36,719 bases of DNA. Source: Bacteroidales bacterium (GTDB lineage: Bacteria; Bacteroidota; Bacteroidia; Bacteroidales; P3). The first letter of the stretch is position 1, and every line of letters begins with the position of its first letter. The notes beneath the pieces were generated by a model. That model was not told the origin of the DNA and made no database searches. It worked only from the letters and a program-made list of their open reading frames with translations. Made by a program: the position numbers and the translations under genes. This document shows positions 3,001 to 36,571 of the stretch, piece after piece. The stretch spans positions 1 to 36,719 of the forward strand of contig JAKSMP010000022.1 in assembly GCA_024400505.1 (NCBI GenBank), in the 5' to 3' direction.

Positions 3001-6000
3001 GGATAAGGTCAAGAGTGAAGTCATCGGCATAGACATACCACAAACCGGTAGAACGATGGCCCATGACGGCGATGTGCTGACCATAACCAGTGAAGTTGGA
3101 GAAGTAGGTAGTGTACTCGTCCCAGTTGGTGGTGCTGCTCACATGGATAGTGTCAACACCCTGGAAGGTGGTAGGATCGTTCCAGTCGCTCAACACACCC
3201 ACATAGAGCACGGGGCTGTAGCTGGTGCTAGAAGCCTTGGCCCAGAAACTGAGCTGAACGGTATTGAGAGGAATCTCGTTGGTATCGATACCAGGGAGAA
3301 CAACCATTTCGTAGTCGCCATAAGTGCCAACGGTGGTGGAGTTGTACCAATAGAGACCCTTGGTGCCACCAGCAGTGTGGTTGTAGGTGGTAGAAGCACT
3401 TACATAAGGATAGCCGCCATAGGAAGTACCATTGTTGTGGCGGGTCCAGCAGTTAACGAATGGGGAACCAGTGGTGGAAGTACCAGTGGTTTCGTTCTCG
3501 AAGTCCATTACATAGGGGAGAGAGTCGATGTCGCTGCAAGCGGTGCGGAAAACGGTGTAGGCAGAGCCACCCACCATGCCGCCGCAATCAACAGTGATAA
3601 CGACATTATATTGAGTATTGCCAGAGAGACCCATTACAGTGGTAAGGGTGTCGGTGGTGTTGACAACGATGGGGTCACCATTGCCAGTAGGAGTGCAAGT
3701 GATGGTCCAAGAAGAAGCGGTACCCACCTCGGTGAAGGAGATATCAGCAGAGGTCTGGGTGATGTTGCTCACCACGACGTTTTCAACAGGAGGACAATCG
3801 GGGATGAGTTCCAGAGTCACATCATCAACATAAGCATACCAGCTGCTGGTGGAGCGATCGGCCTTGATGGCCACATTTGCGCCATAGCCAGTGAAGCCGC
3901 TGAATTCAACAATAAATTCATCCCATGCAGTGTTGCCATTGATGGTGATGGTGTCAACGGGCTGGAAGGTGGTGATGTCGGTAGGATCGGAAAGAACGCC
4001 AATCTTGAATTCAGGATAATAGCTGGTGCTGGAAGCCTTAGCCCAGAATTTGAGCTGAACAGTGTTCATGGCCACAGCGTCGGTGTCGAGAGCGGGGAGA
4101 ACAATACACTGATAGTCGCCATAGGTGCCAACGGTGGTGGTGTTGTACCAATAGAGACCTGCGCCACCGCCCACGGTGTGGTTATAGGCGGTAGAGATGC
4201 TCACATAGGGATAACCACCCGAGGAGGTACCATTGTTCAGATGGCCCCAGCAGGGGATGAATGCAGAACCAGTGGTGCTGGAACCAGAGGGATAACCCTC
4301 GAAATTCTCGACATAGGGGAGAGAAGTGAGTGCGCCACAAGCAGTGCGGAAGCTGAAGTCGTAGGAGCCACCAAGATCATCGCCGCAGTCAACAGTGATA
4401 GTCACATTGTAAACGCTGTTAGCAACCAAGCCAGAGAGGTAAGCATCGGTGGTGGTAGCATAGATGGTAACTGCGCTGTCGGCAGGATTGCCACGACGGT
4501 TGTAAACAACAGTCCAAGCAGTAGCATCGGCAACTTCGGTCCAATGCAATTCAGCATCGGTAGCAGTTACATTGCTAACATATACATCGTCAACACGGGG
4601 GCAATCGGGAGCCACTTCCAAGCGGATATCGTCAACATAAGCATACCAGCTGCTAGAAGGACGATCGGCACGGATAGCTACATAAGAGCCATTGCCAGTG
4701 TAGTTGCGGAAATAGGAAAGGTATTCGGTGAAGGTGGTGGAAGTGCCACAGTCAACGGTATCAACAGGAACAAAAGTGTTGATATCTTCGGGGTTGGACA
4801 TCACACCAACGGTGAAAATAGGATGATAGGAAGTAGAAGAAGCCTTGGCCCAGAAAGTGAGCTGAAGGGTGTTGATGGGATACTCATTGGTGTCAACACC
4901 GGGGAGAACGATTACCTGATAGTCACCATAGGTGCCAGTGGTGATGGAGTTGTACCAATAGAGGCCATAAGAACCACCAGTGGTGTGGTTGTAGGTGGTG
5001 GAATTGCTAACATAAGGATAACCGCCGTAGGAGGTACCATTGTTCAGACGATTCCAGCAGGAGATGAAAGCAGAGCCAGTGGTGCTAGTGCCAGTGGGAC
5101 GGCCTTCGAAGGTTTCCACGAAGGGGAGCGAATCCAATGCCACACAAGGAGTCTTGGCAGTGAGGATGTAAGACAAGGTAGTGTCGCTGCAGAGAGCAGA
5201 TACACGGAACTGATAGGTGGTGTTGGCATCGAGGCCCATGATAGTGGCATAGGTGTCGGTGGTGCTGCTTTCGGCATTGGTCCACGCACCAGAGGTGCCC
5301 TGACGGTAGTCAACATCCCAAGCAGTCTCATGATAGCCAGGAATCCACTCGAGGTCAATCTGGTTAGCTTCAATGCTGCTGACACTTGCTACAGGAGCAG
5401 CACATTCCATGGCCACCATACATTCGCCCACATAGAAGTGGATAGATGCACGGTAGTTGTAGTTGGATAATGCGCTACCCGAGGTGAGGTTGCTAGCGGT
5501 ATAAGCAGTATTGTCTTGATAGCGGGTGCGAGATTTGTTGGGAGCATCCACATAGTAGCCAGTGAGGCTGGTAGAAGCGGTGTGAGAAGAGCCAGAGGGC
5601 TGGTTCATAAAGGTGGTGAGCATGATGCTGCTAGCACCGTCCCACATGAACTCAGTATCAAAATCATAGTGCTGCCAGCCGTTGGTGTTTGCGGGGTGAG
5701 ATGCAGGACCGTAAACCTGAGTGTGGCCGGTGAGGCTGGTAAAGGTGCCAGAGGTGATGGTGGTCTCGTTGCTGTTGCCCATGTAGATGGTCAACTCTTT
5801 GGCATAGGTGCTACCAGTGAAACCGAGGTCGATACCACTAATGGGGCCTGCAGACATACCTGCAGCTTGCAACTCGGCAGCGGTATAGATGGTCTGGTAA
5901 GCGGTATTACCCCAAGAGCTGTAAGCAATACAGCCAGAGATACCAGTGGAGGAGTTGGTGAAAATCACTTCATCCACGCTAGTAGTGTCACGCTCTAAGC

Positions 6001-14229: not shown

Positions 14230-17200
14230 CTATCGGACGATGAGTTTCTTGACGGTGTTGATGCTTGGAGATACTACACGCACATAGTAGGCTCCTTGTG
14301 AGAGCTGCGAGGTGGGCAATACGACATGTTCGGTGCCAGCAGGCATCTGATGGGTGATGACTGTGCGTCCAGCAAGATCCACTACAGTGATGGTCACTGT
14401 TCCATCGGCGGATGGGAGGGAGAGCTCAACATCGCCCGAAGTGGGATTGGGGAAGAGTTGCACGCGGAAATCGTCGGTGGCAGAATGGATGGCACTATAG
14501 GGGGTGACAACACGAACTGCGTTGGACCAGTGCTCACTCATAAAGTTGTCGCCACACTTAGCACGAACATAGATGTCGTAATCGGTCTCGCCGCAAAGTT
14601 GGTCGAGGCGATAGGGATGGTGGTCGGTGAAGATGGAGAATCCCTCGCCAAGGTTGAAGCCATGGGGACCCCAAGAGACTTCCCATTCCTCGGCACGGCC
14701 ACCCTCTACCCAATCAAGGACCACACTGTTGCCTTGGAGATCGGAGTAAGTGAGGTCGGTGACATCGGGGCAAAAGTCGGTAGTGAAGGAGATGGTGTCG
14801 CTCCACTCACTGGGATCGTCGAAGTTTTGACAAGTGGCCTGCACCGCAGCATAATAAGTGGTGGCAGCGGAAAGGTTGTTGACCGAGGCATGTGCGCCAT
14901 AGGCGTTGACCACTTTGTCGTAGGCAGTGTTGAAGACATGGAGACGATAGCTAATATTGTTCTCTTCGGGATTCCAATAGAGTGTGGCCTTCTTGTTGGT
15001 GACTTCGGTGAGACGAAGACCCATGGGCGAAAGGCAAGGAACGTCGCTGGGGTTGAATGTGCCGAGAGCATAGTTGGAGATATCGGCAGAGTCGCAGTAC
15101 TGACGCACACGATAGACATACTCAGTATTGGGATAGGCGTTGTCGATAACGAAGAAGGTGTCGGTGAGTGTGATGTTGTTTACAATCCATGACGAGGTGG
15201 CCTCACGGCGATAGCTGAGTTGGTAGCGCTCGCCAGTATTGTACCAACGGAGAGTGACACTAGCCGGACGAATGATGGGTGCACGCAGGATAGGATTAGG
15301 ACAACTATTGGCAGGGCAGAACTCGAATTTGAGTTGATTGCGCATGCTGAGGGAAGTTCTGGATCCAGAGAACTGAGAGAGCGCAGTAGCCGAAGAAGCA
15401 TCGGGGTTGTCGCTATCAGAGTAGTAAGAAATGGCAGTAATGTCGTTGGTTTGGTCCACTTGGAATCGATAGGCATCACCATTGTAGGATCCGCTATTGT
15501 CATCAACAGCTATCACGAGGTTGGAATGGCCATCATACTCAAATGGATAGTTGAAGTTGATACGATTCCACCCCTGAGTGCACGAGAGAGAACCCGTGTA
15601 AACGAGCTGGAAAGTGGCAGGATCGACAAAGTCGCTGACCGATGAGAAGGATGATAGCGTGGTGTGAGCCACATAGATGGAACAGGAAGTCTTGGCTGAG
15701 TTGGCAGCTGTGTGTGCATACTTGAAAGAGAGTGCAACCAACTGACCCGAGCCATGTATTTCACTGCCAGGAATGATCTGCTGGGAGTAGGAGTAGCGAT
15801 AGTAGTTGGACACCGGCAGATTGACATTGGTGAGGGAGTTGGAGGATGCAAGCGAATCAATTGTTCCGCCGTTGCAAGCAAGGGTATTGAACGAGAAAGC
15901 ATCGGAGATACGAGAGCTATCTTCGCTGCTGCACACGCGGCGAACCTGAATGGTGTATCGGGTGTCGGGATCGAGATCGGAGAGGTGGATGGAGTTGGTG
16001 GTGGTAGTCTGGTTGGAGACAATGGTACCTTGGTTGCGGCAAATCACACGATAATTAGCATTGGGATCGCCAAACCATGCCACATCTGCAAAGACATTGC
16101 CCAAGCGCGCCACTCGAAGGTTGGTGGGTGCAGGACACTGAACATAGTCGATGCTGATGTCATCCACTGCGCCGGGTTGTCCCACCACAGCTTCGGTACC
16201 AGTGGCTTGATTGAACCAGAAGAATACCAAGCGATGAACACCGCCAATGGAATCAATGGTGTAGGTATAAGTGTTCCAGTTGGTGTTGACATGGACAATG
16301 GCCATGTAGGAAATTTCCTGAATGCTGCCCCATGGGGAAGTGATGCCTTGGTTGGAGGCTACCACGGGAGCATCGGAATCGACCATGAACACAGCCAAAC
16401 CATCATAGCCAGCAGTGGTGGTGCCACCTGCTTTTGCACGGAAGGTGATGCGAACAGCGGTATCGGCAGCACCAAAATCAATGTCGCGGTAAGCAGCAGC
16501 GTTGACAATCTGATTGTAATTGGTGCTATTGGTGCGACCTGTATCGGCCGAGATGAACATGCTGTAGCGGCCAGTGGCATCAAATCCATTGGTGCCGTTG
16601 CCGGCAGCAGTATCGCGATACCAGTTGATGGATGGATAGTTGGTATTGGTCTGCCAATTGGTCCACTCGTTGGATGTTTCAAAATCGTAGAAATAAGGCA
16701 CGGTGGCAGGAACCTGCATGGTGGAGAACTGGCAAGAAGCTACAGCCCACTCTGAGGTGTCGGACTCGGAACAGATATTGCGCACGATGAACTCATACGG
16801 AGTGGCGGGTTGGAGACCCGTGACAACGAGAGGATTGCTGGTGGTGGTAAGCAGTGTGCCAGTGCCACGCACAAAGCCTGCAGGGCCGTATTCTACTTGA
16901 TAAGCGATGGGATACTCGCGGTCGGCCCAAGTAAGGGTGGCAGAGGTGGTGGCAATATTGCGAGCAGAAAGGCGATTGGGCGATTGGCAGCTGGGCAACA
17001 AATCCACAACCACACGAGAAATATTGAATGTATTATAATAAATGGTGGCGCCAGTGGCACTAGTGCCCAAGGTGGACACAAAGGTGATGTAGCGGCCAGC
17101 ACCGACTAATGAGGCGAAAGAGGCCTCATAGGTGGTGGGAGTAGAGGTGACTTGAATGGTGTCGGCAGGAATGAATGTTGAGAGGTCGCCAGGGGTAGAG

Positions 17201-20200
17201 CATACGCCCACAATCACCTGATGGGTATAAGAGGTGCTGGTGGTGGCAGGTGCCCAAGCATCAAAATAGACATGCAACGTCTCAATAGGATAGGAAAGAC
17301 TGTCAACCTCGGGGAGTGAAGCATAGGTGGGAGTGGTAGAATAGCTATAGAAGTAGAGGTGGCGATCAGTGACAGAGCCCTGGTCGTTGGTGACATTCTG
17401 GATATAGGGGTAGGAAGAATAGCCACCGCAGGTCCAACAGTCGGGGCGCACGCCAGTACCGGCACCCCAACTCATGAAGTCCTCGGTATAGGGGAGAGAA
17501 TCAATGGCGGAGCAAAGCGTGCTGAAGGACTGGACGAAAGACCAGTTGGAGGTGTCGAAAACCGAGCAGAAAGCACGCACATAAACGTCGTAGCGGCTGG
17601 AGTGGGCAAGGCCATACAGACTGACACTATCCTCATTGAGCACAAATAACGAGACTCCTTCGCCACGATTGAAGCCTGATGGTCCATACTCAATCTCAAA
17701 AGAGGAGGCTGCAGTATCAACCCAATGGACTGTGGCACTAGTGGGAGTGATGGTGCTGAAGGTGACATCAGTGGGACGAGGACAAGCTGAGGTGTGCTCA
17801 ACTAAGAGGTCATCGAGATAGAGATAATTGCTACCGCTGACAGCCAAAGCGATGTACTGTCCTTGGCCCGTGTATGCGGTTAGAGGCACTTCATAACGGT
17901 CCCATCTGCTGGTGGCAGTGGTGGTGATGGTGGCCAAACTGGTGAAGGTGCTATAGTCTTCGGGGTTGGTCATGGCACCGACCTCAAGCGTGCGGTTGGC
18001 AGAAGTGGCGTAAAGCGAGAAACTGACAGAAAGCGTATTGAGACTATCGGCCATGGCAGGAAGTGCCAAATAGCTGTAGTATGAGCTACCAGGAGCATAC
18101 ATATACATGGATTTTGAGCCACTGCTAGCATAGCTTGAAGAGAGATAGGGGTAGCTGCTGCTAGTGTAGTTGCTACCGCGATGCCAACAGCTGGTGATGG
18201 GGGAACCCGAAGTGGATGCTGCTACAAAGTTCTCGAAATCCTCGGAGAATGGAAGGTCGGTGAGTGGCACACAAGAAGTGGTGGCCTGAACTATGGCAGC
18301 AATGCTGTCGCCACCGCAGTCGGGGGTCACACGGAAATAATAGGTGCGCATGGGGATAAGCTCAGCAAAGGTGAAGGCACGGTCGGTAATGCCGGTGGCA
18401 GCAGAGATCCAGAGGGTGTCGGAATCCATGCGGTAATCAAGATCCCACGAGGTCTCGTTAAATCCAGGAGCCCACATGATGGAGACACTATCGGAAAGCA
18501 CTTGGGTGACTACCACATTGGGCATGGCGCAAGTGGCAGTTGTGTCGCAAGGACGGATGAAACTAATGTTGGGGCGGTAAGTGCTCACACCAGTGCTGCT
18601 GTAGTTGGTGGTGTAGTTGGATGTGGTGTAGGCCGTACCATCTTTGTAGGCCCAAGTGGTGCGGTTGGTGCCGCAGCTGGTGCTATAGGCATAGAAACCA
18701 GAGCTGCTATGGCTAGCACCTGCAGGTTGGTTGACAAAAGAGGTGACAACCACATTGGAAACACCATCCCAGATGAAGGGGGTATTGAAATAATATTCAA
18801 TAGTGCCCACATCGGTGGTGTGACGAGGTCCACGGTAATATTCGGTAAGACAGCTAGCAATTGGAGAATAGCCGGAGAAGGAGTTGACAGAGGTCTGACC
18901 CATGTGGATAACCAATTCTTTCTCGTAGCTGCCAGCGGTATTCCAAGTGTAGGTAATGCCATTGATGGGACCAGCAGTGAGGCCCATGGCGTTGAGGTCG
19001 GCAGGAGTGTAGATGCTTTGACAGAAAGTGTTGCCCCAAGAGGAGTTGACGGGAACACTGGTGGTGAGACTAGTGCCATTGCCCGACTGGGGGGTGACGC
19101 CACCTGCCAAACAGCGGGTGAAGAATGAGGCAGAATCGCCAGCAATAGTGTCGGTGCCACAGATGCTGCACACATAAGCCGTGTAATGGGTTGTGGGGTT
19201 AAGACCCGAGAAGAAATAACTGAGTTGGCTGGTGGTGTCGATGAAAAGGGGCTCAGAAGCATCGTCGTTGCGCAACGTCACTACATAATAAGCCGGATAG
19301 GAATTGGCACCAACCAAATCCCAACTAAAGAGTGCCGAAGCTCCCATGACGTTGGAAACCTCAACCGCATTGATATAGCGGCATGTGGGGGCAGCTACAC
19401 AGCTAACGCTGAGTTCGAAGCCGGCATTATTGACGCTACCATCGGACGTGAAGCGAATGGTAAGCGGACCTGAAGCGGAACGAATAGTAGGAACGATTTG
19501 ACTGGTACCCTGACCTTGATAAAGGAGTGCGCCAGATGCTGATGCACCATCGTAGATATAGAGATGGTCGCAGCAGCTCTCGGTGTTAAGGATGCCGCTG
19601 ATGAGAACAATGCTATCGGGGCTGGAAGGATAGATGACCAAAGTGGCATTGGCATTGTGGGAATAGTTGCCAGCAGGGCCACCATCGTCGTAAATCATGC
19701 CGCCACAAGCATGGATGCTATAGCTGCCAGTTGTCGGCAAATTATAGGCACCCGGGGTGACTTGGATGGGACCTTCCCAACCGCTGAACTCTGTGCCGCA
19801 ATCGGTACGGAGGTAAACATCATAAACGCCACCAGCCAACATGGAGGTGCAGACGTAAAAGGTGTCGGAAACAAACTCGATATGCAGCATGCTGTCGATG
19901 GGCGTGCCCACTGTATCAAAACGGAGTTCCCATGAGCCTGTGCCCATAGCAGGAGTCCAAACGAAAGCGACGCTATCGGGTTGGGAGAAAGACGTGCATG
20001 TGAAATCGATGGGGCGTAAGCAGTAGTTTTCAATACGGAGGAAGCTGACAGTAAGTCCGGGGGCAGGCACATTGGTGCCACCCAAAGACAAAGGTGATGC
20101 CACCATGCTGGGCACAAGGGACGACCATGGACCAGCTGCAGAAAGCACATGATTTCCGGTTTGCTCGCCCAAGAAAACATAGGCTTGGGCATTGCTGGAA

Positions 20201-20721
20201 GAGGTGCATGTGTCATAGATGAAATCCACATCGCCATTCTCGTGGAGACACACTTGGAAAGAGCAAGTAACGCTCTCGCCATAGGGGCGCACATGATCAT
20301 ACTCAACGATCACAACGCGGCTGGGAGCATAGCCCTGAACCTCGTAATAGACCTGGCCGCCACCTGAAGTAGCATCGAGGTCGAAATCCATGCCCAACGG
20401 AGAGATAATGGACATACCACTGGTGTGGGGATCAAAACCCGACGCAGCAGGATTGGCTGAGCCAATGCCAATTTGTCCGTTGGACGAGACCATGATACTA
20501 CTACAAGTATCTTGGCCCAAGATGAAATCGAAAGGCAATGGGAGAGACTCGGATACATCATCTCCTTGAAGGGAGGTGAGCTGAGTACCCGAAGCAGCTA
20601 TAGATGAATAGCCACCCATTGATGAGCTGAAAGCGTAGTCACTTACATACACTTGAGCTCGGGACACAAACGGCAAAAGCATTGCCGCTAGAATCAAGAA
20701 AAAGCGTATTGACTTATCCAT
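14230..20721 (-). CDS. Secreted CUB/FN3/MAM-like surface protein with T9SS sorting domain
   Basis: This complete 2163-residue protein has a signal peptide (residues 1-22, cleavage after SRAQ). Its domains run: N-terminal beta domain (about 25-230), FN3, a CUB domain (about 338-441, with CDHLYIYDGAS and LTIRFTSD), FN3, a Cys-containing beta domain (about 545-725, SSWGNTFCQSIYT), then alternating FN3 and MAM-like jelly rolls, and three final FN3 domains. The last 80 residues are a T9SS type A domain: LFPNPTSGDVELSL, VTVVDLAGR-like segment, QGAYYVRVVS, KKLIVR. T9SS carries such proteins across the outer membrane and usually attaches or releases them after cleavage of this domain. Domain order and many motifs match the giant gene at 1-8542, so the two are probably paralogues. 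CUB, FN3 and MAM-like folds suggest binding to glycans or proteins; no catalytic domain is apparent. Confidence 0.93.
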   Translation of the reverse strand: MDKSIRFFLILAAMLLPFVSRAQVYVSDYAFSSSMGGYSSIAASGTQLTSLQGDDVSESLPLPFDFILGQDTCSSIMVSSNGQIGIGSANPAASGFDPHTSGMSIISPLGMDFDLDATSGGGQVYYEVQGYAPSRVVIVEYDHVRPYGESVTCSFQVCLHENGDVDFIYDTCTSSSNAQAYVFLGEQTGNHVLSAAGPWSSLVPSMVASPLSLGGTNVPAPGLTVSFLRIENYCLRPIDFTCTSFSQPDSVAFVWTPAMGTGSWELRFDTVGTPIDSMLHIEFVSDTFYVCTSMLAGGVYDVYLRTDCGTEFSGWEGPIQVTPGAYNLPTTGSYSIHACGGMIYDDGGPAGNYSHNANATLVIYPSSPDSIVLISGILNTESCCDHLYIYDGASASGALLYQGQGTSQIVPTIRSASGPLTIRFTSDGSVNNAGFELSVSCVAAPTCRYINAVEVSNVMGASALFSWDLVGANSYPAYYVVTLRNDDASEPLFIDTTSQLSYFFSGLNPTTHYTAYVCSICGTDTIAGDSASFFTRCLAGGVTPQSGNGTSLTTSVPVNSSWGNTFCQSIYTPADLNAMGLTAGPINGITYTWNTAGSYEKELVIHMGQTSVNSFSGYSPIASCLTEYYRGPRHTTDVGTIEYYFNTPFIWDGVSNVVVTSFVNQPAGASHSSSGFYAYSTSCGTNRTTWAYKDGTAYTTSNYTTNYSSTGVSTYRPNISFIRPCDTTATCAMPNVVVTQVLSDSVSIMWAPGFNETSWDLDYRMDSDTLWISAATGITDRAFTFAELIPMRTYYFRVTPDCGGDSIAAIVQATTSCVPLTDLPFSEDFENFVAASTSGSPITSCWHRGSNYTSSSYPYLSSSYASSGSKSMYMYAPGSSYYSYLALPAMADSLNTLSVSFSLYATSANRTLEVGAMTNPEDYSTFTSLATITTTATSRWDRYEVPLTAYTGQGQYIALAVSGSNYLYLDDLLVEHTSACPRPTDVTFSTITPTSATVHWVDTAASSFEIEYGPSGFNRGEGVSLFVLNEDSVSLYGLAHSSRYDVYVRAFCSVFDTSNWSFVQSFSTLCSAIDSLPYTEDFMSWGAGTGVRPDCWTCGGYSSYPYIQNVTNDQGSVTDRHLYFYSYSTTPTYASLPEVDSLSYPIETLHVYFDAWAPATTSTSYTHQVIVGVCSTPGDLSTFIPADTIQVTSTPTTYEASFASLVGAGRYITFVSTLGTSATGATIYYNTFNISRVVVDLLPSCQSPNRLSARNIATTSATLTWADREYPIAYQVEYGPAGFVRGTGTLLTTTSNPLVVTGLQPATPYEFIVRNICSESDTSEWAVASCQFSTMQVPATVPYFYDFETSNEWTNWQTNTNYPSINWYRDTAAGNGTNGFDATGRYSMFISADTGRTNSTNYNQIVNAAAYRDIDFGAADTAVRITFRAKAGGTTTAGYDGLAVFMVDSDAPVVASNQGITSPWGSIQEISYMAIVHVNTNWNTYTYTIDSIGGVHRLVFFWFNQATGTEAVVGQPGAVDDISIDYVQCPAPTNLRVARLGNVFADVAWFGDPNANYRVICRNQGTIVSNQTTTTNSIHLSDLDPDTRYTIQVRRVCSSEDSSRISDAFSFNTLACNGGTIDSLASSNSLTNVNLPVSNYYRYSYSQQIIPGSEIHGSGQLVALSFKYAHTAANSAKTSCSIYVAHTTLSSFSSVSDFVDPATFQLVYTGSLSCTQGWNRINFNYPFEYDGHSNLVIAVDDNSGSYNGDAYRFQVDQTNDITAISYYSDSDNPDASSATALSQFSGSRTSLSMRNQLKFEFCPANSCPNPILRAPIIRPASVTLRWYNTGERYQLSYRREATSSWIVNNITLTDTFFVIDNAYPNTEYVYRVRQYCDSADISNYALGTFNPSDVPCLSPMGLRLTEVTNKKATLYWNPEENNISYRLHVFNTAYDKVVNAYGAHASVNNLSAATTYYAAVQATCQNFDDPSEWSDTISFTTDFCPDVTDLTYSDLQGNSVVLDWVEGGRAEEWEVSWGPHGFNLGEGFSIFTDHHPYRLDQLCGETDYDIYVRAKCGDNFMSEHWSNAVRVVTPYSAIHSATDDFRVQLFPNPTSGDVELSLPSADGTVTITVVDLAGRTVITHQMPAGTEHVVLPTSQLSQGAYYVRVVSPSINTVKKLIVR

Positions 20722-26306: not shown

Positions 26307-28727
26307 TTAATACTCTCTAACAAGGCGAACAGAGCAACCAGTGGAATAATTCATAGTGTTCTGCATAGCGTTGTCGCCAGCACCAATGTGGAAAGAATAA
26401 GCGTGGGAACCATCGATATGAGAGGAAGTCCAATAGTTACCCAGTGCATTAATACTAGAAGTGCTGCTACCATTGCGGCTACCAGCAGCGGGCAGGAAAA
26501 CTGCACCAGCAGCCTCCATAAGAGCCCAATCTTCGGCACTATAAACATTAGTGAGGAATGAGTCATTAGTGTTGACAAAGGTCAAACCAGCAGGGCAAGT
26601 CCAGTTGTCAGGAAGTAAAACATATCCAGCAGTGCTTACAACAGTGGCCATACCTCTGAGCATAGTAGCATTGGGACGGAGAGTTAACAGGTAAGTCCAC
26701 TCGCTATAGGTGAGAGTGCGCCAAATACCGGCCTGATTGCCACCATTGATAATACGGTTGTAGAAACCCCAGTCGGCATTAGCATAAAGGCCAGAAAGGT
26801 CATCGCCATCGGTGGATTCGGTGTATTCACTATCATTAGTAGAAGTTTCATAGGGCATGTAACGACCTGCACCGCCATCCCAGCCACTGGTACCATAACC
26901 GAATAAGTCAACCCAAGAATTGCAATAAGCCATCATCACAACATTATTATTGGCGCTACCGGCGATATCATACTGATTGGTGGAGAAACGCCAAGTCTTT
27001 ACACGAGGACGATACTGGAGATTGCCTTGAGAGAACTTAACACGATTGGTAGTGCTTACACTGAAAATGCCAGGAAGGGAACCTTGAATTTCGGGATGTT
27101 CAAGTTCAAAAATACGGTCATTAGCACGATCCAACTGGCTCTGGAGTTCGCTAACAACAGAATCCATAACGTGGTTGATAGAGTCGATACGACCATTGAG
27201 TATTACTACACGGGCATCAACATAAGCTTTATTGACTGCATCCTGAGGATCCACAGGAGTGGAGAGGTTGCGAATACGACTATTTGCACGGTTATTGATA
27301 AGAAGCACATCAGCAAGCCCCTGAGATTCGCCAGTGATGAAACCAAGGTCATTATTGAATTGGCTGAGATTGGTGGGGCGACCAGTGATGCTGTCCCAAG
27401 ACATGGTAGTGGGATGATGAACAACAGCATAGGAACCACCAGTGAGACGGATGGTATCGCCATTTTGAGAGAGAGCGATATCGTTTGCTGTGAGGTAGCC
27501 TAAATCATTATTGAACTGGCTAAGATTAATTGGACGACCAGTAATGCTATCCCAGGGCATGGTGGTGGGGTGATCAACAACTACATAACTATTACCGAAG
27601 AAAATGGTGTCGCCATTGCTGGTGATGCTAAGGTCATTGAAGAACTGGCTTAAATTAGTAGGACGGTTGGAGATACTATCCCAAGAAACAGAACTGTTAC
27701 CTGAGGGAAGAATAACATAGCTACCACCGGTAAGGAACAGTGTATCGCCATGACGAGTGAGCTCAAGTGACAAATCGTTGGTGAACTGACTGAGACTGGT
27801 AGGACGTCCAGTGATGCTATCCCAAGGCATGGTAGTGGGGTGGTGAACTACAACAAAACTACCATCAGTAAAGAAGATGGTATCACCGCTCTGGCTAAGT
27901 GAGAGGCCTAAATCATTGACAAATTGACTAAGGTTGGTAGGACGGTTTACAATACTATCCCACTCAATAGTGCCATTATTGGAAGGCAATACAATATAAC
28001 TACCACCTGTCAAGAAAATGGTATCACCGTGACGGGTAAGGAAAATGTCGTTAGCGGTAAGGAAGTTCTGATCGTTGAAGAACTGGCTGAGCATGGTTGG
28101 ATGGCCAATGATACTATCCCAAGGCATGGTAGTGGGGTGATGAACTACAACATAGCTACCACCAGTGAGTCGAATAGTATCATCACTTTGAGTAAGTGCA
28201 ATATCATTAGCGGTAAGGAAGTTCAAATCGTTGAGGAATTGACTAAGACGAGTAGGTGCGTTGCGCAAGCTATCATAACGGAAACCCCAATTACGGAAAT
28301 AAGGATCACGCTCATTGTAGTTAACTACAGATTCTGCAAAATTTGCATACTGAGCATAAGGAACTGACATGATCTTCTGAGCAGTAGAAAGCGAGTAGTC
28401 AGCGCCACCTTGAGGGTCAAGTTCGGATACAAGGAAATAGGGACCATTACCCCATTCAATGGATGAGAATTGACTATTACCCTCGCCAACATTAATAGTG
28501 AAAAGACCATTATCATTGGTACTAATACGTTCAACCTGGGTATAAACCACAGGGCCATTCTCGTCATATTGGCGAATAGTGATTCGCACACCAACTGCAC
28601 GTCTGTTCATCAGCTGACCTGCAGTATTTCGAGCCACGGCTTGATAGGTAAAGCCCTTAGGCACCTGTGCATACACGGTGCAGCTGAAGGACAAAATCAA
28701 AAGTAAAACGGTTAAAATCTTCTTCAT
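26307..28727 (-). CDS. Tail-fibre-like repeat surface protein with FISUMP-type C-terminal domain
   Basis: The 806-residue protein has a signal peptide (1-21). A Bacteroidetes-type N-terminal domain follows (about 22-130; PKGFTYQAVARN, MSVPYAQYA). Next come seven repeats of about 45-55 residues (150-465), centred on WDSIxxRPTNLSQFxNDL and GDTIFLTGGSYVV. A phage-tail-fibre-like element, PVDPQDAVNKAYVD (491-504), leads into a predicted coiled coil (505-545). The C-terminal domain (about 555-806) resembles the FISUMP/DUF1566 lectin-like fold: WVDLFGYGTSGWDG, EWTYLLTLRPNA, GNYWTSS, GCSVRLV. The layout suggests a trimeric fibre with a binding head, displayed on the cell surface. No T9SS domain is seen at its end. 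It lies 12 nt after the small T9SS-sorted protein gene, in the same operon. Confidence 0.85.
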   Translation of the reverse strand: MKKILTVLLLILSFSCTVYAQVPKGFTYQAVARNTAGQLMNRRAVGVRITIRQYDENGPVVYTQVERISTNDNGLFTINVGEGNSQFSSIEWGNGPYFLVSELDPQGGADYSLSTAQKIMSVPYAQYANFAESVVNYNERDPYFRNWGFRYDSLRNAPTRLSQFLNDLNFLTANDIALTQSDDTIRLTGGSYVVVHHPTTMPWDSIIGHPTMLSQFFNDQNFLTANDIFLTRHGDTIFLTGGSYIVLPSNNGTIEWDSIVNRPTNLSQFVNDLGLSLSQSGDTIFFTDGSFVVVHHPTTMPWDSITGRPTSLSQFTNDLSLELTRHGDTLFLTGGSYVILPSGNSSVSWDSISNRPTNLSQFFNDLSITSNGDTIFFGNSYVVVDHPTTMPWDSITGRPINLSQFNNDLGYLTANDIALSQNGDTIRLTGGSYAVVHHPTTMSWDSITGRPTNLSQFNNDLGFITGESQGLADVLLINNRANSRIRNLSTPVDPQDAVNKAYVDARVVILNGRIDSINHVMDSVVSELQSQLDRANDRIFELEHPEIQGSLPGIFSVSTTNRVKFSQGNLQYRPRVKTWRFSTNQYDIAGSANNNVVMMAYCNSWVDLFGYGTSGWDGGAGRYMPYETSTNDSEYTESTDGDDLSGLYANADWGFYNRIINGGNQAGIWRTLTYSEWTYLLTLRPNATMLRGMATVVSTAGYVLLPDNWTCPAGLTFVNTNDSFLTNVYSAEDWALMEAAGAVFLPAAGSRNGSSTSSINALGNYWTSSHIDGSHAYSFHIGAGDNAMQNTMNYSTGCSVRLVREY
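27333..28280 (-). repeat. Seven degenerate tandem repeats in the fibre-like protein
   Basis: Protein units of 45-55 residues carry WDSI..RPTNLSQF.NDL, often LTANDIALTQ, then GDTI.LTGGSYVVVHHPTT. Two alternating sub-types are visible, ending in HHPTT or in LPSGN/LPSNN. This suggests an ancestral duplication of a two-unit block. Confidence 0.85.
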
Positions 28728-31616: not shown

Positions 31617-33770
31617 TTACTTTAAATAAGTCTCGTAATAGTCAAACATTTTCTCGTAGAGATGTAACCTATCGTAACCTCGAACATTATGTTCATGATG
31701 AGGATAAACAAAATAATCGACCTGCTTGCCCGCCTTGATACATGCATCAATAAACTCAATACTATGTTGCCAAACCACAGTATTATCCTCAGCACCGTGA
31801 ATGACAAGAAGGCGACCCTGTAAGTCCTTAGCTTTTGATGTAAGGCAATTTTTAGCATAGCCTTCGGGATTCTCTTGTGGAGTGTCCATATAACGCTCTC
31901 CATACATGATTTCGTACCACTTCCAGTCAATAACTGGGCCACCGGCGCAACCAACTTTGAAGATCTCAGGATGAGCCAACTTAAGGCTAATGGTCATAAA
32001 GCCACCAAAGCTCCAACCTTCTACACCCATTCGATCTTTATCGACAAAGGGCAAAGATTGGAGAAATTTGACACCTTCCATCTGGTCAGCCATCTCGATT
32101 GTGCCAAGCTGGCGATGCGTGCAGCTTTCAAACTCAAAGCCACGGTTGTCTGTTCCGCGATTGTCAACGGTGAATACCACATATCCTTGCTGGGCAAGGA
32201 AAGTGAAATAAAGATTGCCACCACCCAGCCAAGTATCAGTGACAAGCTGACTGTGGGGACCACCATAGACATATACAAGGGTAGGATATTTCTTGCCAGG
32301 TTCCATGTGAGGAGGAGTGATGAGTCGGTAGTAGAGGTCGGTCTTGCCGTCAGCGGCCTTGATGCTGCCCATCTCAATGCCGGGCATGGCGTAGTCGGCC
32401 AAGGGATTGCTGAGCTGATAGAGGGTGGTAAGTTCTTTGCCTTTGACGATATCGATGACCTTGGCGGTACCGGGGTTTTCAACACTGTTATAGATGTCGA
32501 TCATTGTGGTGCCGGCAGGGTTGATGATGACTGTGTGGGTGCCCTTGGCGGGGGTGAGAAGAGTCATTTGGCCTGTGGCCAGGTTGACTTTGTATGCAGC
32601 TCGGCCTGTGGCACTCTCTTTGTTGGCATAGATGAAAATATTTTCGACCTTGGCATCGAAACCTATAAAACCTTCGACCTCATAGCTGCCCTTGGTGACC
32701 TGTTTGAGGAGCTGTCCATCGGTATTGTAGAGATAGAGATGTTTGTAACCATCGCGAAGACTGAACCAGAGGAACTGATCAGGGTGACTCGGAACGAAAA
32801 TCATAGGGTCGCAAGGCTCAATATAGCGTGAATTTGCTTCTTCGAAGAGTATGGTATCGAACTCTCCATCGGTCACATTGTAGCGTTCAAGCCACATATG
32901 GTTTTGCTCACGGTTTATTTTTGCGATATAAAGGTAATCCTCTAGGGGTGACCAACTGAGATTGGTGAGATAGTTTTCTCTCTCATCAATGCTCTCATCG
33001 CGACGGCTGTCAAGGTATAAAACAGAATCTTTAGCTACATTATATATGCCCACGGTAACCTCATGGCTCTTCATACCAGCCATGGGGTATTTGAAAGGTT
33101 GTTCGCGAGCGATGCGAGCTGTGGTGTTCACCATGGGATAGTCAGTAACCATGGACTGATCCATGCGATAGAAAGCAAGGAGATTACCTTGGGGTGACCA
33201 AAAGGTGCCTTTATTAATGCCGAACTCGTTGCGATGTACGGACTGTCCATAAACGATGTCTTGATCGGATTCGTTCGTAATTGCAATGGATTTTCCGGCG
33301 TTGAAAACAAAAAGATTGTTGCCCATGGTGTAGGCGGTTTTGAATCCTGATTGCTCAACATCGTGGTTACAAGCATCCTCATCAGTGGGATAGTTGGCCA
33401 TGCATGCAAGGGTTTTCTTGGTCAAATTGTATTGCAGGATTTTACCAGCAGTGCTGAAACGAACTTCCTTGGCATTGACAAATTCAATGGAAGGGACATA
33501 GGTCAAGTTGTCCATGCTAGCAGCTGACATAGCCTTGTTGAGCTGGCTAAGTGTGAGAATTGGCTTCACCTTACCCGGCTGGCCGTAATAGACCACGGTG
33601 TCTTGAACATAGGCAGTCTGGTTGGTGCTGCCGACGAACTGCAACCCTCTTATAGTAGGACGAGGATACAAAGTTCCAGTCATAAGTTGCTTAGAACTAA
33701 GCATCTTATTCTGCGCAAAAACGCTGACTGAGATAGCCAGCGTCAGAGCTAAAAAGATATATCTTTTCAT
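31617..33770 (-). CDS. S9 family peptidase, prolyl tripeptidyl-peptidase (PtpA)-like
   Basis: The 717-residue serine exopeptidase has a signal peptide (1-19), so it acts in the periplasm or at the surface. An N-terminal beta-propeller (about 40-470) precedes an alpha/beta-hydrolase domain. The catalytic triad is visible: Ser587 in GWSFGG, Asp662 in HGAEDN and His694 in HEHNVRG. The GGPVIDW...YEIMYGERY and QENPEGY stretches recall Porphyromonas prolyl tripeptidyl-peptidase more than dipeptidyl-peptidase IV, so release of Xaa-Xaa-Pro tripeptides is the likely activity. This subfamily choice is from memory of the motifs. It helps asaccharolytic Bacteroidales use peptides. It starts 10 nt after the GT2 gene and may be cotranscribed with it. 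A hairpin follows. Confidence 0.9.
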   Translation of the reverse strand: MKRYIFLALTLAISVSVFAQNKMLSSKQLMTGTLYPRPTIRGLQFVGSTNQTAYVQDTVVYYGQPGKVKPILTLSQLNKAMSAASMDNLTYVPSIEFVNAKEVRFSTAGKILQYNLTKKTLACMANYPTDEDACNHDVEQSGFKTAYTMGNNLFVFNAGKSIAITNESDQDIVYGQSVHRNEFGINKGTFWSPQGNLLAFYRMDQSMVTDYPMVNTTARIAREQPFKYPMAGMKSHEVTVGIYNVAKDSVLYLDSRRDESIDERENYLTNLSWSPLEDYLYIAKINREQNHMWLERYNVTDGEFDTILFEEANSRYIEPCDPMIFVPSHPDQFLWFSLRDGYKHLYLYNTDGQLLKQVTKGSYEVEGFIGFDAKVENIFIYANKESATGRAAYKVNLATGQMTLLTPAKGTHTVIINPAGTTMIDIYNSVENPGTAKVIDIVKGKELTTLYQLSNPLADYAMPGIEMGSIKAADGKTDLYYRLITPPHMEPGKKYPTLVYVYGGPHSQLVTDTWLGGGNLYFTFLAQQGYVVFTVDNRGTDNRGFEFESCTHRQLGTIEMADQMEGVKFLQSLPFVDKDRMGVEGWSFGGFMTISLKLAHPEIFKVGCAGGPVIDWKWYEIMYGERYMDTPQENPEGYAKNCLTSKAKDLQGRLLVIHGAEDNTVVWQHSIEFIDACIKAGKQVDYFVYPHHEHNVRGYDRLHLYEKMFDYYETYLK

Positions 33771-33780
33771 TATAGTACTA

Positions 33781-34506
33781 TTAATAATTTTTCCAATTAC
33801 GCATACGTAGGTTGAAAACTCCGAAGAAGGCCTCTTTAAAAATCTTCATACTCATCTTAGAGGTACCGAGCACACGATCGGTGAAGATGATGGGCACTTC
33901 GTAGATATTAAAACCAAGTCGGGTAGCGGTATATTTCATTTCAATCTGGAAGGCATAACCGACGAACTTAACCTTATTGAATTTCATTTTCTCCAACACC
34001 CTTCTATTATAGCAGACATAACCTGCAGTGGCATCCATAACCTTCATTCGGGTAACCATACGGACATATACCGAAGCAAAATATGACATCAACAAACGCC
34101 CCATAGGCCAATTGACAACACTAATTTTGCCATCCACATAACGAGACCCAACCACTACGTCCCCTTTACCTGCTGAGCAAGCCTCATACAAACGAGGCAA
34201 ATCTTCGGGATTGTGAGAAAAGTCGGCATCCATTTCAATCATGAACTGATAGCCATGCTCTAATCCCCAACGGAATCCATCCAAGTAAGCAGTACCAAGA
34301 CCTAGTTTTCCTTTACGCTCTTTAATAAAGAGTCTATTCGGAAATTCATGCATAAGACGCTTGACAATATCGGCTGTGCCATCAGGAGAATTGTCTTCAA
34401 TAATAAGCATATCAAAAGACTTATCTAAAGAAAACACCTTACGGATGATATTCTCTATATTTTCTTTCTCATTATATGTGGGTGTAATGATAAGTGTATC
34501 ATTCAT
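33781..34506 (-). CDS. GT2 polyprenol-phosphate mannose synthase-like glycosyltransferase
   Basis: The 241-residue protein (ATG at 34506, preferred to a TTG nine codons upstream) is a soluble GT-A enzyme of the dolichol-phosphate mannosyltransferase type. It opens LIITPTYNEKENI. It has EDNSPDGT (37-44), GLGTAYLDG (69-77), the metal-binding DAD (93-95) in EMDADFSHNPEDL, and GSRYVDG. It lacks the C-terminal membrane segments of larger relatives. The expected reaction is transfer of mannose or a related sugar from GDP-sugar to polyprenol phosphate at the membrane, supplying periplasmic glycosylation. It lies 23 nt after the S26-VanZ gene and 10 nt before the peptidase gene. Bacteroidales often carry such an enzyme as a housekeeping gene, so its part in the upstream system is not certain. 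Confidence 0.9.
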   Translation of the reverse strand: MNDTLIITPTYNEKENIENIIRKVFSLDKSFDMLIIEDNSPDGTADIVKRLMHEFPNRLFIKERKGKLGLGTAYLDGFRWGLEHGYQFMIEMDADFSHNPEDLPRLYEACSAGKGDVVVGSRYVDGKISVVNWPMGRLLMSYFASVYVRMVTRMKVMDATAGYVCYNRRVLEKMKFNKVKFVGYAFQIEMKYTATRLGFNIYEVPIIFTDRVLGTSKMSMKIFKEAFFGVFNLRMRNWKNY

Positions 34507-34529
34507 AATATCAATATTTTTTATTACTT

Positions 34530-35369
34530 TCAATTATTACGATTAACCTGTTGAGAGACAATCTTATTATGTCTAACAAGCATAGAAAGAATACCAAGCC
34601 AACCCAAAATATTCCCAACACAATTAGCAACCAAATCATTTACATCATATCCCCTATAGGGCAATATGGCTTGTCCAAATTCTGTGATAAAACCGATAAT
34701 GAGGGCGGAAATCAATATGCGCCACGCACGTTTGTCCAACCAGTCAGCTAAAAAAAGTGGACATACGACATATATACACGCATGCAAAAGATGATCTAAT
34801 CGAAGACCAAAGATATGGTTGTTCAATACTAGTCCTAGACCATTCAGAGGTGCCCACATTAATATGGCAAGCAGGATGAAATAAAGAGCTGCCAAACGCT
34901 TACGACCCTCTTGATTGAATAGCTTTACAACAAACTGCTTTGTGCGTTTACGTCGCAAGACTCTGCGGGAATCGGTCCTAAACTGATCTGACTCAACTGA
35001 AATAGATATACCATCTTTTTTTTCAAGAATCGTCAACTTTGCAAGTACATCTTCTCTTGAAACACGTTCATAATGGTAGCAATTGTCTCCTTGAAACACG
35101 AGCACATCACCATCAATACGCATCAAACGATGAATGATGAAATGGCCATTTAACACAAACATATAAATTTCAAATGGAACACAATCCTCATCATCAGACA
35201 TTGGTCGAAGTGTAATTTTATCACCATCCCCATGTATCAATGGCAACATACTAGTACCACCAAACATCATTTTTACAGCTTTACCCTCTTTAAGAAGTTC
35301 ACACATCTCTAAAAGGATAAAATTGTGTATATCATTCGGAAGTGTAATCGATGTCTTTTCTTGTTCCAT
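34530..35369 (-). CDS. S26 signal-peptidase-like domain fused to a VanZ-like membrane domain
   Basis: This 279-residue protein joins two domains. The N-terminal part (about 15-120) is S24/S26-peptidase-like: GGTSMLPLI with the candidate nucleophile Ser40, IIHRL with His80 where classical signal peptidases have Lys, and FQGDN (92-96). Ser-His pairing is the pattern of the archaeal/ER-type signal peptidase branch. After a basic linker (134-158), the C-terminal part has about four membrane helices and the VanZ signature: LDHLLHACIY (191-200), ITEFGQAILPYRGYDVNDL (228-246) and ANCVGN. No membrane helix precedes the peptidase domain. The start is the ATG at 35369, 2 nt after the stop of the kinase-like gene. 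Cleavage of a peptide substrate with a linked membrane function is a plausible inference; the activity is untested. Confidence 0.85.
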   Translation of the reverse strand: MEQEKTSITLPNDIHNFILLEMCELLKEGKAVKMMFGGTSMLPLIHGDGDKITLRPMSDDEDCVPFEIYMFVLNGHFIIHRLMRIDGDVLVFQGDNCYHYERVSREDVLAKLTILEKKDGISISVESDQFRTDSRRVLRRKRTKQFVVKLFNQEGRKRLAALYFILLAILMWAPLNGLGLVLNNHIFGLRLDHLLHACIYVVCPLFLADWLDKRAWRILISALIIGFITEFGQAILPYRGYDVNDLVANCVGNILGWLGILSMLVRHNKIVSQQVNRNN

Positions 35370-35371
35370 CA

Positions 35372-36253
35372 CTATTTAATGGGGCCGAATATTGCATTGT
35401 GGCTAGTCCAAGCAGCTGCCTCATCAGGCAAACACTCCAAATGGAATACAGGAACACATTCCAAGACATTAGACAACAAACCCATTAATAAATCTTGGAA
35501 ATGCTGATCTTGGGACAATGCTGGAGGAAATGAAGGATGAACTGAGGCAAAAGCGGACAGAATATTTTGACGATGAATCTTATTATACGGAGCCTGAGAC
35601 AATCTAATTGCAGCTGCCAATGGGAAACGCAATTGATGATAGCAATGAGTTTTGCCACTCCAAGGTGATCCATATACCACTGCCTCGCCATTTTCGAATG
35701 CGAGCACAGGGCTATCGTCATTCAACAAATGCGTATCAGGAATGTGGTTCAACCAAAGACGAGTGTGGGTACTTTTACCTGTACCAGATTCGCCTAAACA
35801 AAGTACGGCTTTACCTTGATGCACTACACATGAAGAATGTATTAGCACCATATTACTAGAAGCCGACATCATACCAAGCGCCATCCACAAAGCGAAACGA
35901 AGATGCATTGGATTACGGCCACATGTACCTTCTACTACGTTACTGCCAATCTTATACCGCATATACAATGGGCAATCATCAGGAGAAGCGACCAAGCTCA
36001 TCGAAAAATAATAGACATCATCTTTCTTAAAAAAGAAACTATTCGTGTCAGTCTCATTATCTTCTATTTCATAAAGCTTCTCACTATCGGCAGGAATAGA
36101 AAAAGTATGGCCGAACACAACCTTCCATTCAGGCTCTTGATCTTCAACACAAAAAACAGGAAAACCTGGAGTATTCTTCAGAGCTGCGCATTCAACATCA
36201 CCTTCAACTTGGAAAAGATGACCAGCAATTGAATATGTGAGTTTATCTGCCAT
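35372..36253 (-). CDS. HPr kinase-like P-loop protein
   Basis: The 293-residue protein resembles the HPr kinase/phosphorylase C-terminal domain found as a stand-alone protein in gene clusters with PqqD. It shows LIHSSCVVHQGKAVLC (137-152), a Walker A motif GESGTGKST (154-162), LLNDDSPVL (176-184) and YGSPWSGK (194-201). The N-terminal 110 residues form a separate beta-rich part. Some homologues phosphorylate serine residues of lasso-peptide precursors, so a peptide kinase role is possible. No HPr or PTS gene is visible nearby, which argues against a role in carbon control. The gene starts 8 nt after pqqD-like and ends 2 nt before the S26-VanZ gene, so translation is probably coupled. Confidence 0.87.
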   Translation of the reverse strand: MADKLTYSIAGHLFQVEGDVECAALKNTPGFPVFCVEDQEPEWKVVFGHTFSIPADSEKLYEIEDNETDTNSFFFKKDDVYYFSMSLVASPDDCPLYMRYKIGSNVVEGTCGRNPMHLRFALWMALGMMSASSNMVLIHSSCVVHQGKAVLCLGESGTGKSTHTRLWLNHIPDTHLLNDDSPVLAFENGEAVVYGSPWSGKTHCYHQLRFPLAAAIRLSQAPYNKIHRQNILSAFASVHPSFPPALSQDQHFQDLLMGLLSNVLECVPVFHLECLPDEAAAWTSHNAIFGPIK

Positions 36254-36261
36254 ACAAATAA

Positions 36262-36534
36262 TTATTCAGCTAGTAGCAAACCATTTTCCTGAAGAACCAT
36301 TACCCAAGACTCAGCATCCTTACGAGCTACAGATTCTTCGACTTCATAATTATCCAATAAAACATTTACAGCATCATCAACAGTAAAATCCTTTGACAAC
36401 AAAGAATTCCACATAAGAAGAGCAGAATCGTTGAATGCAATTACGCGTGTCATGTCGGCACTTGATTTGCCTTGTAACAAAATGATATTCTCGCCCGCCA
36501 CAGTACGGACCTTAAAAATAGGATTAATTTTCAT
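36262..36534 (-). CDS. PqqD family peptide-recognition (RRE-like) protein
   Basis: The 90-residue protein, from the ATG at 36534, fits the PqqD family. It has an N-terminal beta hairpin with a winged-helix layout (FKVRTVAGENIILL, 7-20; FNDSALLMWNSL, 34-45), then FTVDDAVNVLL (50-60) and a C-terminal helix ending ENGLLLAE. PqqD-like domains bind leader peptides and present them to modifying enzymes. An upstream in-frame extension to 36570 is unlikely, because the promoter lies directly before this ATG. The gene heads a tight operon with the HPr-kinase-like and S26-VanZ genes. No radical SAM, cyclase or precursor gene is seen in the window. Confidence 0.87.
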   Translation of the reverse strand: MKINPIFKVRTVAGENIILLQGKSSADMTRVIAFNDSALLMWNSLLSKDFTVDDAVNVLLDNYEVEESVARKDAESWVMVLQENGLLLAE

Positions 36535-36538
36535 GATG

Positions 36539-36571
36539 CAAAGATACAACTTTTTTTTGAAATAATACAAA
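36539..36571 (-). promoter_or_regulatory. Consensus promoter with almost no leader before the PqqD-like gene
   Basis: On the minus strand TTTG (36571-36568), 21 nt, TATCTTTG (36546-36539) matches the Bacteroidetes consensus. Only CATC separates the -7 box from the ATG, so transcription should start at or next to the first codon. Confidence 0.75.

Follow-up and report, generated by a model that had tools for sequence, protein, structure and literature searches.

Among the described systems for ribosomally synthesized and post-translationally modified peptides (RiPPs), the linear polyphosphorylated peptides (LPPs; lppA/K/B/S/D/N) of Popov et al. 2026 (PMC13381572) are the closest to the locus studied here, a triplet of genes for a PqqD-like protein, an HprK-like kinase and an S26 peptidase fused to VanZ on contig JAKSMP010000022.1 of a Bacteroidales bacterium (GCA_024400505.1). 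In the sections of that paper drawn on here, the precursor leader is bound through Y-16 and P-13 and held by N33, D70 and F74 of LppB, a SipW-like enzyme cleaves it after T-1 in dependence on the RiPP recognition element (RRE), and an HprK-like kinase polyphosphorylates Ser3. The same sections term LPPs restricted to Bacillota, though for the peptidase search reported there it is "most" of the matches that belong to Bacillota; the string "bacteroid" is absent from the main text. The window, i.e., the whole stretch of DNA analysed, is the complete contig of 36,719 nt; it ends 185 nt upstream of pqqD and belongs to a 2.09-Mb genome that is 73% complete. The triplet is probably a trans-acting maturation unit for small, LPP-like ribosomal peptides, with the leader binding, phosphorylation, cleavage and envelope role proposed below.

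The window unit resembles LPP systems in its predicted discrete RRE, HprK-like kinase and SipW/Sec11-type leader peptidase. Candidate precursors carry a YxxPxV leader in which Pro and the predicted cut are 12 residues apart, a conserved Ser just after that cut and a variable core, and fuller Bacteroidales loci also hold a nucleotidyltransferase (NTase) and an ATP-binding cassette (ABC) exporter; two loci (L113 and L144) look capsule-like by eye. In contrast to LPP systems, the window unit has no adjacent exporter or NTase, its peptidase is fused to VanZ, and the precursors of the window's genus are scattered in trans, most of them with a lipoprotein partner. The motif reads VExGFxxS in Bacteroidales precursors and HQxIxFETxxS in LPPs, whereas YxxPxV, the Pro-to-cut spacing and the downstream Ser are kept. 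Because NTase and exporter are absent from the cluster, we class the window system as a variant of LPPs and not as a member. Phosphorylated lasso peptides of the paeninodin/pseudomycoidin type, as presented in the portions of PMC9266682 used here, share the RRE-guided leader, the His-Lys-Asp-Asp HprK-like kinase and, in fuller loci, the NTase, but differ from our system in that the latter has a Sec11-type peptidase, no B2 family in the genus and a conserved Ser near the start of the core, not its end. With SipW/Sec11 signal peptidases the window protein shares a Ser-His pair, a GD box and profile matches to SEC11C/A; unlike them it lacks an N-terminal anchor, is predicted to be cytosolic, carries a C-terminal VanZ part and is linked to an RRE and a kinase.

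A search of the open-licence PMC literature found no LPP-like systems in Bacteroidota. A RiPP family called Bacillota-restricted in its 2026 description would extend to Bacteroidota, among them named genomes of Bacteroides, Phocaeicola and Prevotella, with a concrete substrate list for short orphan open reading frames (ORFs) in these genomes and an unusual layout in which one modification locus would serve many scattered, mostly lipoprotein-paired precursors. The role of LPP-like peptides would become testable by gene removals in ordinary gut isolates.

The conserved unit and its enzymes

PqqD, the HprK-like kinase and the S26 peptidase form a conserved unit across Bacteroidales. In the window they are encoded as follows, S26 residues being numbered from the GTG at 35372:

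36262..36534, minus strand: pqqD, predicted discrete RRE and YxxP leader binder of 90 aa, ATG start (PF05402, E 4.2e-11)
35372..36253, minus strand: HprK-like kinase, 293 aa, with His139, Lys160, Asp179 and Asp180, invariant in 42 aligned homologues
34530..35369, minus strand: S26-VanZ ORF, ATG start, with an in-frame GTG at 35372
34998..35369 (edge approximate), minus strand: putative S26 (Sec11/SipW-type) leader peptidase domain with Ser41, His81, Asp96 and Glu102, from SEC11C profile match and conservation
34575..34880, minus strand: VanZ part, fused to the peptidase and containing four hydrophobic stretches (PF04892, E 2e-7; hydropathy and charge)

Both the PqqD and the VanZ domain score over their family cut-offs. 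Against solved structures the PqqD profile matches the lasso RRE TfuB1 (6jx3, E 7e-6), and among 27 rows D73 is kept throughout and N35 and W77 in 26 each; by our own reading of order and near-spacing, rather than by alignment with LppB, N35, D73 and W77 would correspond to the leader-holding N33, D70 and F74. The kinase scores under its family cut-offs (Hpr_kinase_C, 12.1 bits; TIGR04352 HprK_rel_A, 15.4 bits), and among solved structures its profile matched P-loop proteins and no HprK. Its H139, K160, D179 and D180 are invariant in all 42 aligned rows, and a His-Lys-Asp-Asp set is reported for lasso kinases in the parts of PMC9266682 consulted. The S26 domain also stays under cut-off (Peptidase_S24, 15.8 bits); its profile matches SEC11C (3.8e-6) and SEC11A (7.8e-6), and S41, H81, G95, D96 and E102 are kept in 35/35 aligned homologues. 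Glu102 presumably stands at the position expected for the third catalytic Asp, judged by the box spacing as we take it to be. We use the HprK and S26 labels because the catalytic residues are conserved and, for S26, because of the SEC11C match as well. Judged by these residues, the kinase and S26 domains do not appear to be catalytically dead, a concern raised in a sequence-only reading of the window. One ORF at another locus (L071, 8885-10518) holds both kinase and S26, with PqqD just downstream, and this natural fusion supports a shared job.

Kinase homologues occur in 41 of 47 same-genus relatives, the window's own genome excluded, and the kinase profile reaches E <1e-95 in 52 of the 59 genus genomes, the window's included; a 53rd (G033) has weak matches only. 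Scanning the collection with the kinase alignment gave at least 546 relatives, and since the best 79 distinct named loci were kept, close relatives are over-represented in the sample. Within 6 kb of the kinase, these best 79 loci hold S26 (76), PqqD (49), the VanZ fusion (23), an ABC exporter (48) and an NTase (18), where exporter and NTase were sought with single sequences and remote copies could escape. VanZ fusion and exporter never occur together and eight loci have neither; all 23 VanZ-fused loci carry PqqD and none carries an exporter. Counting the window and 119 loci, with some contigs in twice, gives S26 in 115, PqqD in 88, VanZ in 59, exporter in 50 and NTase in 19 of 120. Association of the three genes beyond close relatives, which the sequence-only reading had left to a check, is therefore conserved.

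The loci fall into two layouts. Type A, found in Bacteroides, Phocaeicola, Prevotella and others, comprises in its full form precursor, lipoprotein, PqqD, NTP_transf_5, ABC exporter, kinase and S26; proteins of one such locus (L069) match PF14907 at 3.9e-33 and ABC_tran at 7.6e-32. Type B, that of the window, comprises PqqD, kinase and S26-VanZ and lacks a neighbouring exporter or NTase. In a 74-row kinase tree, all 23 type-B rows lie in one 25-row branch (support 96/75, not full) together with two rows of neither type. An NTase is present in 18/48 exporter-type named loci and was found within 6 kb of neither the window unit nor any VanZ-type locus, in the single-sequence search that remote copies could escape. 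No MsbA-like exporter lies within 6 kb of the window unit, the best own-genome homologue of the type-A exporter having 28% identity.

Across the genus, a PF14907 NTase is present in 46/59 genomes; it is absent from five of the seven genomes without a strong kinase vs. eight of the 52 others (p 0.004). The window's own genome has two PF14907 nucleotidyltransferases on one contig (L264 2760-3812 and L265 5467-6546), the first in what by eye resembles a capsule region, and this pair represents possible trans-acting partners for phosphorylated peptides.

Candidate precursors and their lipoprotein neighbours

The precursor family was recognised among short ORFs of type-A loci, in which the leader reads YxxPx(V/I)...ExGFxxS; regular-expression searches for short ORFs gave mostly noise, and the first of them, in unnamed loci, yielded the L069 peptide. 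Y, P, E and G are invariant in 22 aligned precursors, and the pattern YxxP-x9-ExG(F/Y/I/L)xx(S/T/A) fits 99 of 102 readable distinct frames, with Ser at the last position in 92, Thr in six and Ala in one. The spacing from Pro to Gly is 12 residues, as is that from P-13 to T-1 in LppA. Searching with the 22-row alignment, we found 15 precursors on 13 contigs of the window's own genome (E 2e-11 to 4e-3), none of them within the window, and at least one precursor in 52 of the 59 genus genomes at E ≤0.1, and a single genome has as many as 22. Against Pfam, one member reached E 0.05 to an unrelated family; NCBIfam gave nothing. The ratio of replacement to silent changes (pN/pS) is 0.17 in the leader and 0.16 in the core over 13 comparable pairs, and the smaller number of replacement than silent changes in both parts supports real coding sequence. 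Core shuffling or gene conversion is suggested by three loci of one genome (L224, L226 and L227), where one 27-residue core, from FEGS on, follows three different leaders and the lipoproteins alongside are related but not the same.

Kinase and precursor co-occur. Among the 59 genus genomes, 50 hold both, two the kinase only, two the precursor only and five neither (Fisher 8e-5; 5e-4 at a stricter precursor cut of 0.01); five of the seven without a strong kinase are thus also without a precursor. In a set of 295 genomes from the order, the kinase was found at <1e-30 in 18 and the precursor at 0.01 in 11, with seven shared (Fisher 2.6e-7); the 1e-30 line was set after viewing the list, and the search's own 0.001 line admits 72/295, the 54 weaker ones being mostly partial over the model. 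Three genomes of another genus in the same family have neither. In full Bacteroides, Phocaeicola and Prevotella clusters, precursor, lipoprotein and enzymes lie side by side. In line with an earlier proposal, the first three genes of the operon look like those that tailor and process the product of a peptide system.

Most precursors are followed directly by a lipoprotein gene. Under a rule asking for a lipobox-like ORF that starts 60 nt before to 300 nt after the precursor stop, this holds for 14/15 precursors in the own genome, 35/43 from other genomes of the genus and 32/44 elsewhere (one masked row included), vs. 17/116 genes and 515/4000 random positions (13–15%) in a control drawn from stretches fetched around precursors. 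The 14 lipoprotein starts of the own genome lie at -47 to +31 nt from the precursor stop. By eye, the paired lipoproteins have similar N-termini, SCQK(D/E) followed by FxAxxE..KTxLxG..W..GD; at the C-terminus, three of seven match DUF285 over cut-off, and ten others show no family over cut-off. Four precursor genes lie together at L228 (327-7923); three of them are near-copies and lie next to near-copies of one lipoprotein, a pattern suggestive of recent peptide-lipoprotein pair duplication. The sole own-genome precursor without a downstream lipoprotein (L211, 5999-6196) is followed, as next large gene, by an M1 peptidase with a Por secretion tail, and a similar lone precursor occurs at L191.

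Proposed maturation route

In the route that we propose, PqqD, acting as RRE, would bind the YxxPx(V/I) motif of a precursor of ~35–90 aa in the cytosol. The HprK-like kinase would phosphorylate, once or several times, the nearly invariant Ser found four residues beyond the invariant Gly, and the S26 domain, tethered by VanZ to the inner face of the inner membrane, would remove the leader, probably at Gly|Phe (ExG|FxxS). One triplet would serve the ~15 precursor genes on 13 contigs of the window's genome. Since a lipoprotein gene comes straight after 14 of these 15, the mature peptide and its lipoprotein probably work together in the envelope. Both the cut at ExG|FxxS and the phospho-site at the Ser of this motif are putative placements, made because the Pro-to-Gly distance equals that from P-13 to T-1. 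Two other cuts, behind GFA and behind the Ser, were rejected in favour of ExG|F owing to the fixed spacing to the LPP cut.

A broader proposal, which we advance tentatively and with slightly less than even confidence, is that one trans-acting RRE-kinase-peptidase/VanZ unit matures dispersed sets of phosphopeptides (up to ~20 per genome), each with a dedicated surface lipoprotein, as matched pairs for display, adhesion or self-recognition, the exporter-type clusters of Bacteroides and its relatives being the self-contained form.

Several points weigh against the triplet as a maturation unit for these peptides. For the enzymes and their presumed products, the third catalytic acid of S26 is Glu (E102) vs. 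Asp93 in LppS, 25 of the 48 exporter-type named loci show no PqqD within 6 kb, and both the scissile bond and the phospho-site are placed by analogy. As to the precursors, the invariance of the motif is partly by choice, since rows were picked with patterns asking for parts of it; the 13 pairs behind the selection estimate are few and not all independent; and two genus genomes (G005 and G016) have precursors only between E 0.01 and 0.1. The co-occurrence is imperfect: G025 and G029 have the kinase and no precursor, 11/18 strong-kinase genomes of the order set show no precursor, 4/11 order genomes with precursors lack a strong kinase (G085, with a weak one; G213, G286 and G340), and only 17 of the 48 exporter-type named loci have a detected precursor. 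Furthermore, the Fisher tests make no correction for shared ancestry, the query alignments include some rows from counted genomes, and the pairing rule is loose, having missed plain lipoproteins in L113 and L144 and passed one false case in L069. Finally, in the sections used of PMC13381572 LppK did not accept Thr, yet six of the 99 matching precursors have Thr.

Alternative explanations

The triplet might instead be an ordinary envelope system, in which a signal peptidase-VanZ protein acts on exported proteins, PqqD and the P-loop protein are regulators and the small peptides are unrelated. The VanZ membrane domain, the resemblance of S26 to Sec11 signal peptidases and the lack of a precursor in the window all fit such a system. 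However, S26 shows no hydrophobic stretch at its N-terminus, and the first of the four VanZ hydrophobic stretches is preceded by a strongly basic segment of 30 residues (11 K/R and 1 D/E), which suggests that the S26 domain faces the cytosol; in addition, VanZ-less relatives sit in exporter clusters, 17/48 with precursors, and precursors co-occur with the kinase. We therefore regard an envelope system of this kind as unlikely.

Alternatively, the YxxP peptides could be upstream regulatory ORFs or assembly partners of the lipoproteins, with the triplet unrelated. Most of the peptides are indeed encoded immediately before a lipoprotein gene and, in the window's genus, at a distance from the triplet, and precursors occur without a strong kinase in two genus genomes that also count against the maturation unit, namely G006 (19 precursors, no kinase detected, 72% completeness) and G033 (one precursor). 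Against this stand the Bacteroides, Phocaeicola and Prevotella clusters, which place the peptide-lipoprotein pair beside PqqD, NTase, ABC exporter, kinase and S26, the motif, which is that of RRE-bound leaders with the same spacing, and the missing peptides in five of the seven genomes of the genus that lack a strong kinase; an unrelated triplet thus seems improbable to us.

A degenerate or undetected lasso-peptide pathway, the precedent put forward in the sequence-only reading, is very improbable and was set aside, for although PqqD, HprK-like kinase and YxxP leaders are all found in lasso pathways, the B2 leader peptidase family PF13471 scored over cut-off in 0/59 genus genomes, the window's included (one sub-threshold fragment has stops; no family-model search for macrolactam synthetase was made), and LPPs are the closer system. 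Distinct from all these, a defence system was discarded as a candidate, PADLOC having given a single match at E 0.065.

Neighbouring genes, promoter and remaining window

The triplet, here taken as a peptide maturation unit, opens a run of five minus-strand ORFs in the order PqqD, HprK-like, S26-VanZ, GT2 and S9, separated by 8, 2, 23 and 10 nt. The remaining features of this run are:

36539..36571, minus strand: promoter motif TTTG-N21-TATCTTTG, which we take to be of the Bacteroidota type; pattern match ending four bases before the pqqD ATG
33781..34506, minus strand: adjacent GT2 glycosyltransferase, ATG start (PF00535, Glycos_transf_2, E 7.6e-25)
31617..33770, minus strand: adjacent S9 dipeptidyl-peptidase-like protein (DPPIV_N, PF00930, 3.3e-68; Peptidase_S9, PF00326, 1.2e-47)

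Gene number, order and gaps agree with the sequence-only reading, as does the presence of a promoter motif before pqqD; however, the window holds six sites of this type vs. 0.85 expected, so that a single site is only mildly informative. As the motif ends so close to the ATG, the pqqD mRNA may have almost no leader. Of 36 genus loci, 18 have a GT2 homologue downstream of S26-VanZ, in the same orientation and no more than 1 kb away; for two of the 18 that lack one, little sequence is available on that side. An S9 homologue lies in the flanks of 19/41 loci. GT2 and S9 were dropped as system parts given that half of the genus loci keep the triplet without GT2, and they are probably neighbours, as had been supposed earlier. 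Comparison with plasmids gave no near match. Elsewhere on the minus strand of the window, positions 2-8542, 14230-20721 and 26307-28727 encode very long, apparently secreted proteins that are repetitive as judged by eye.

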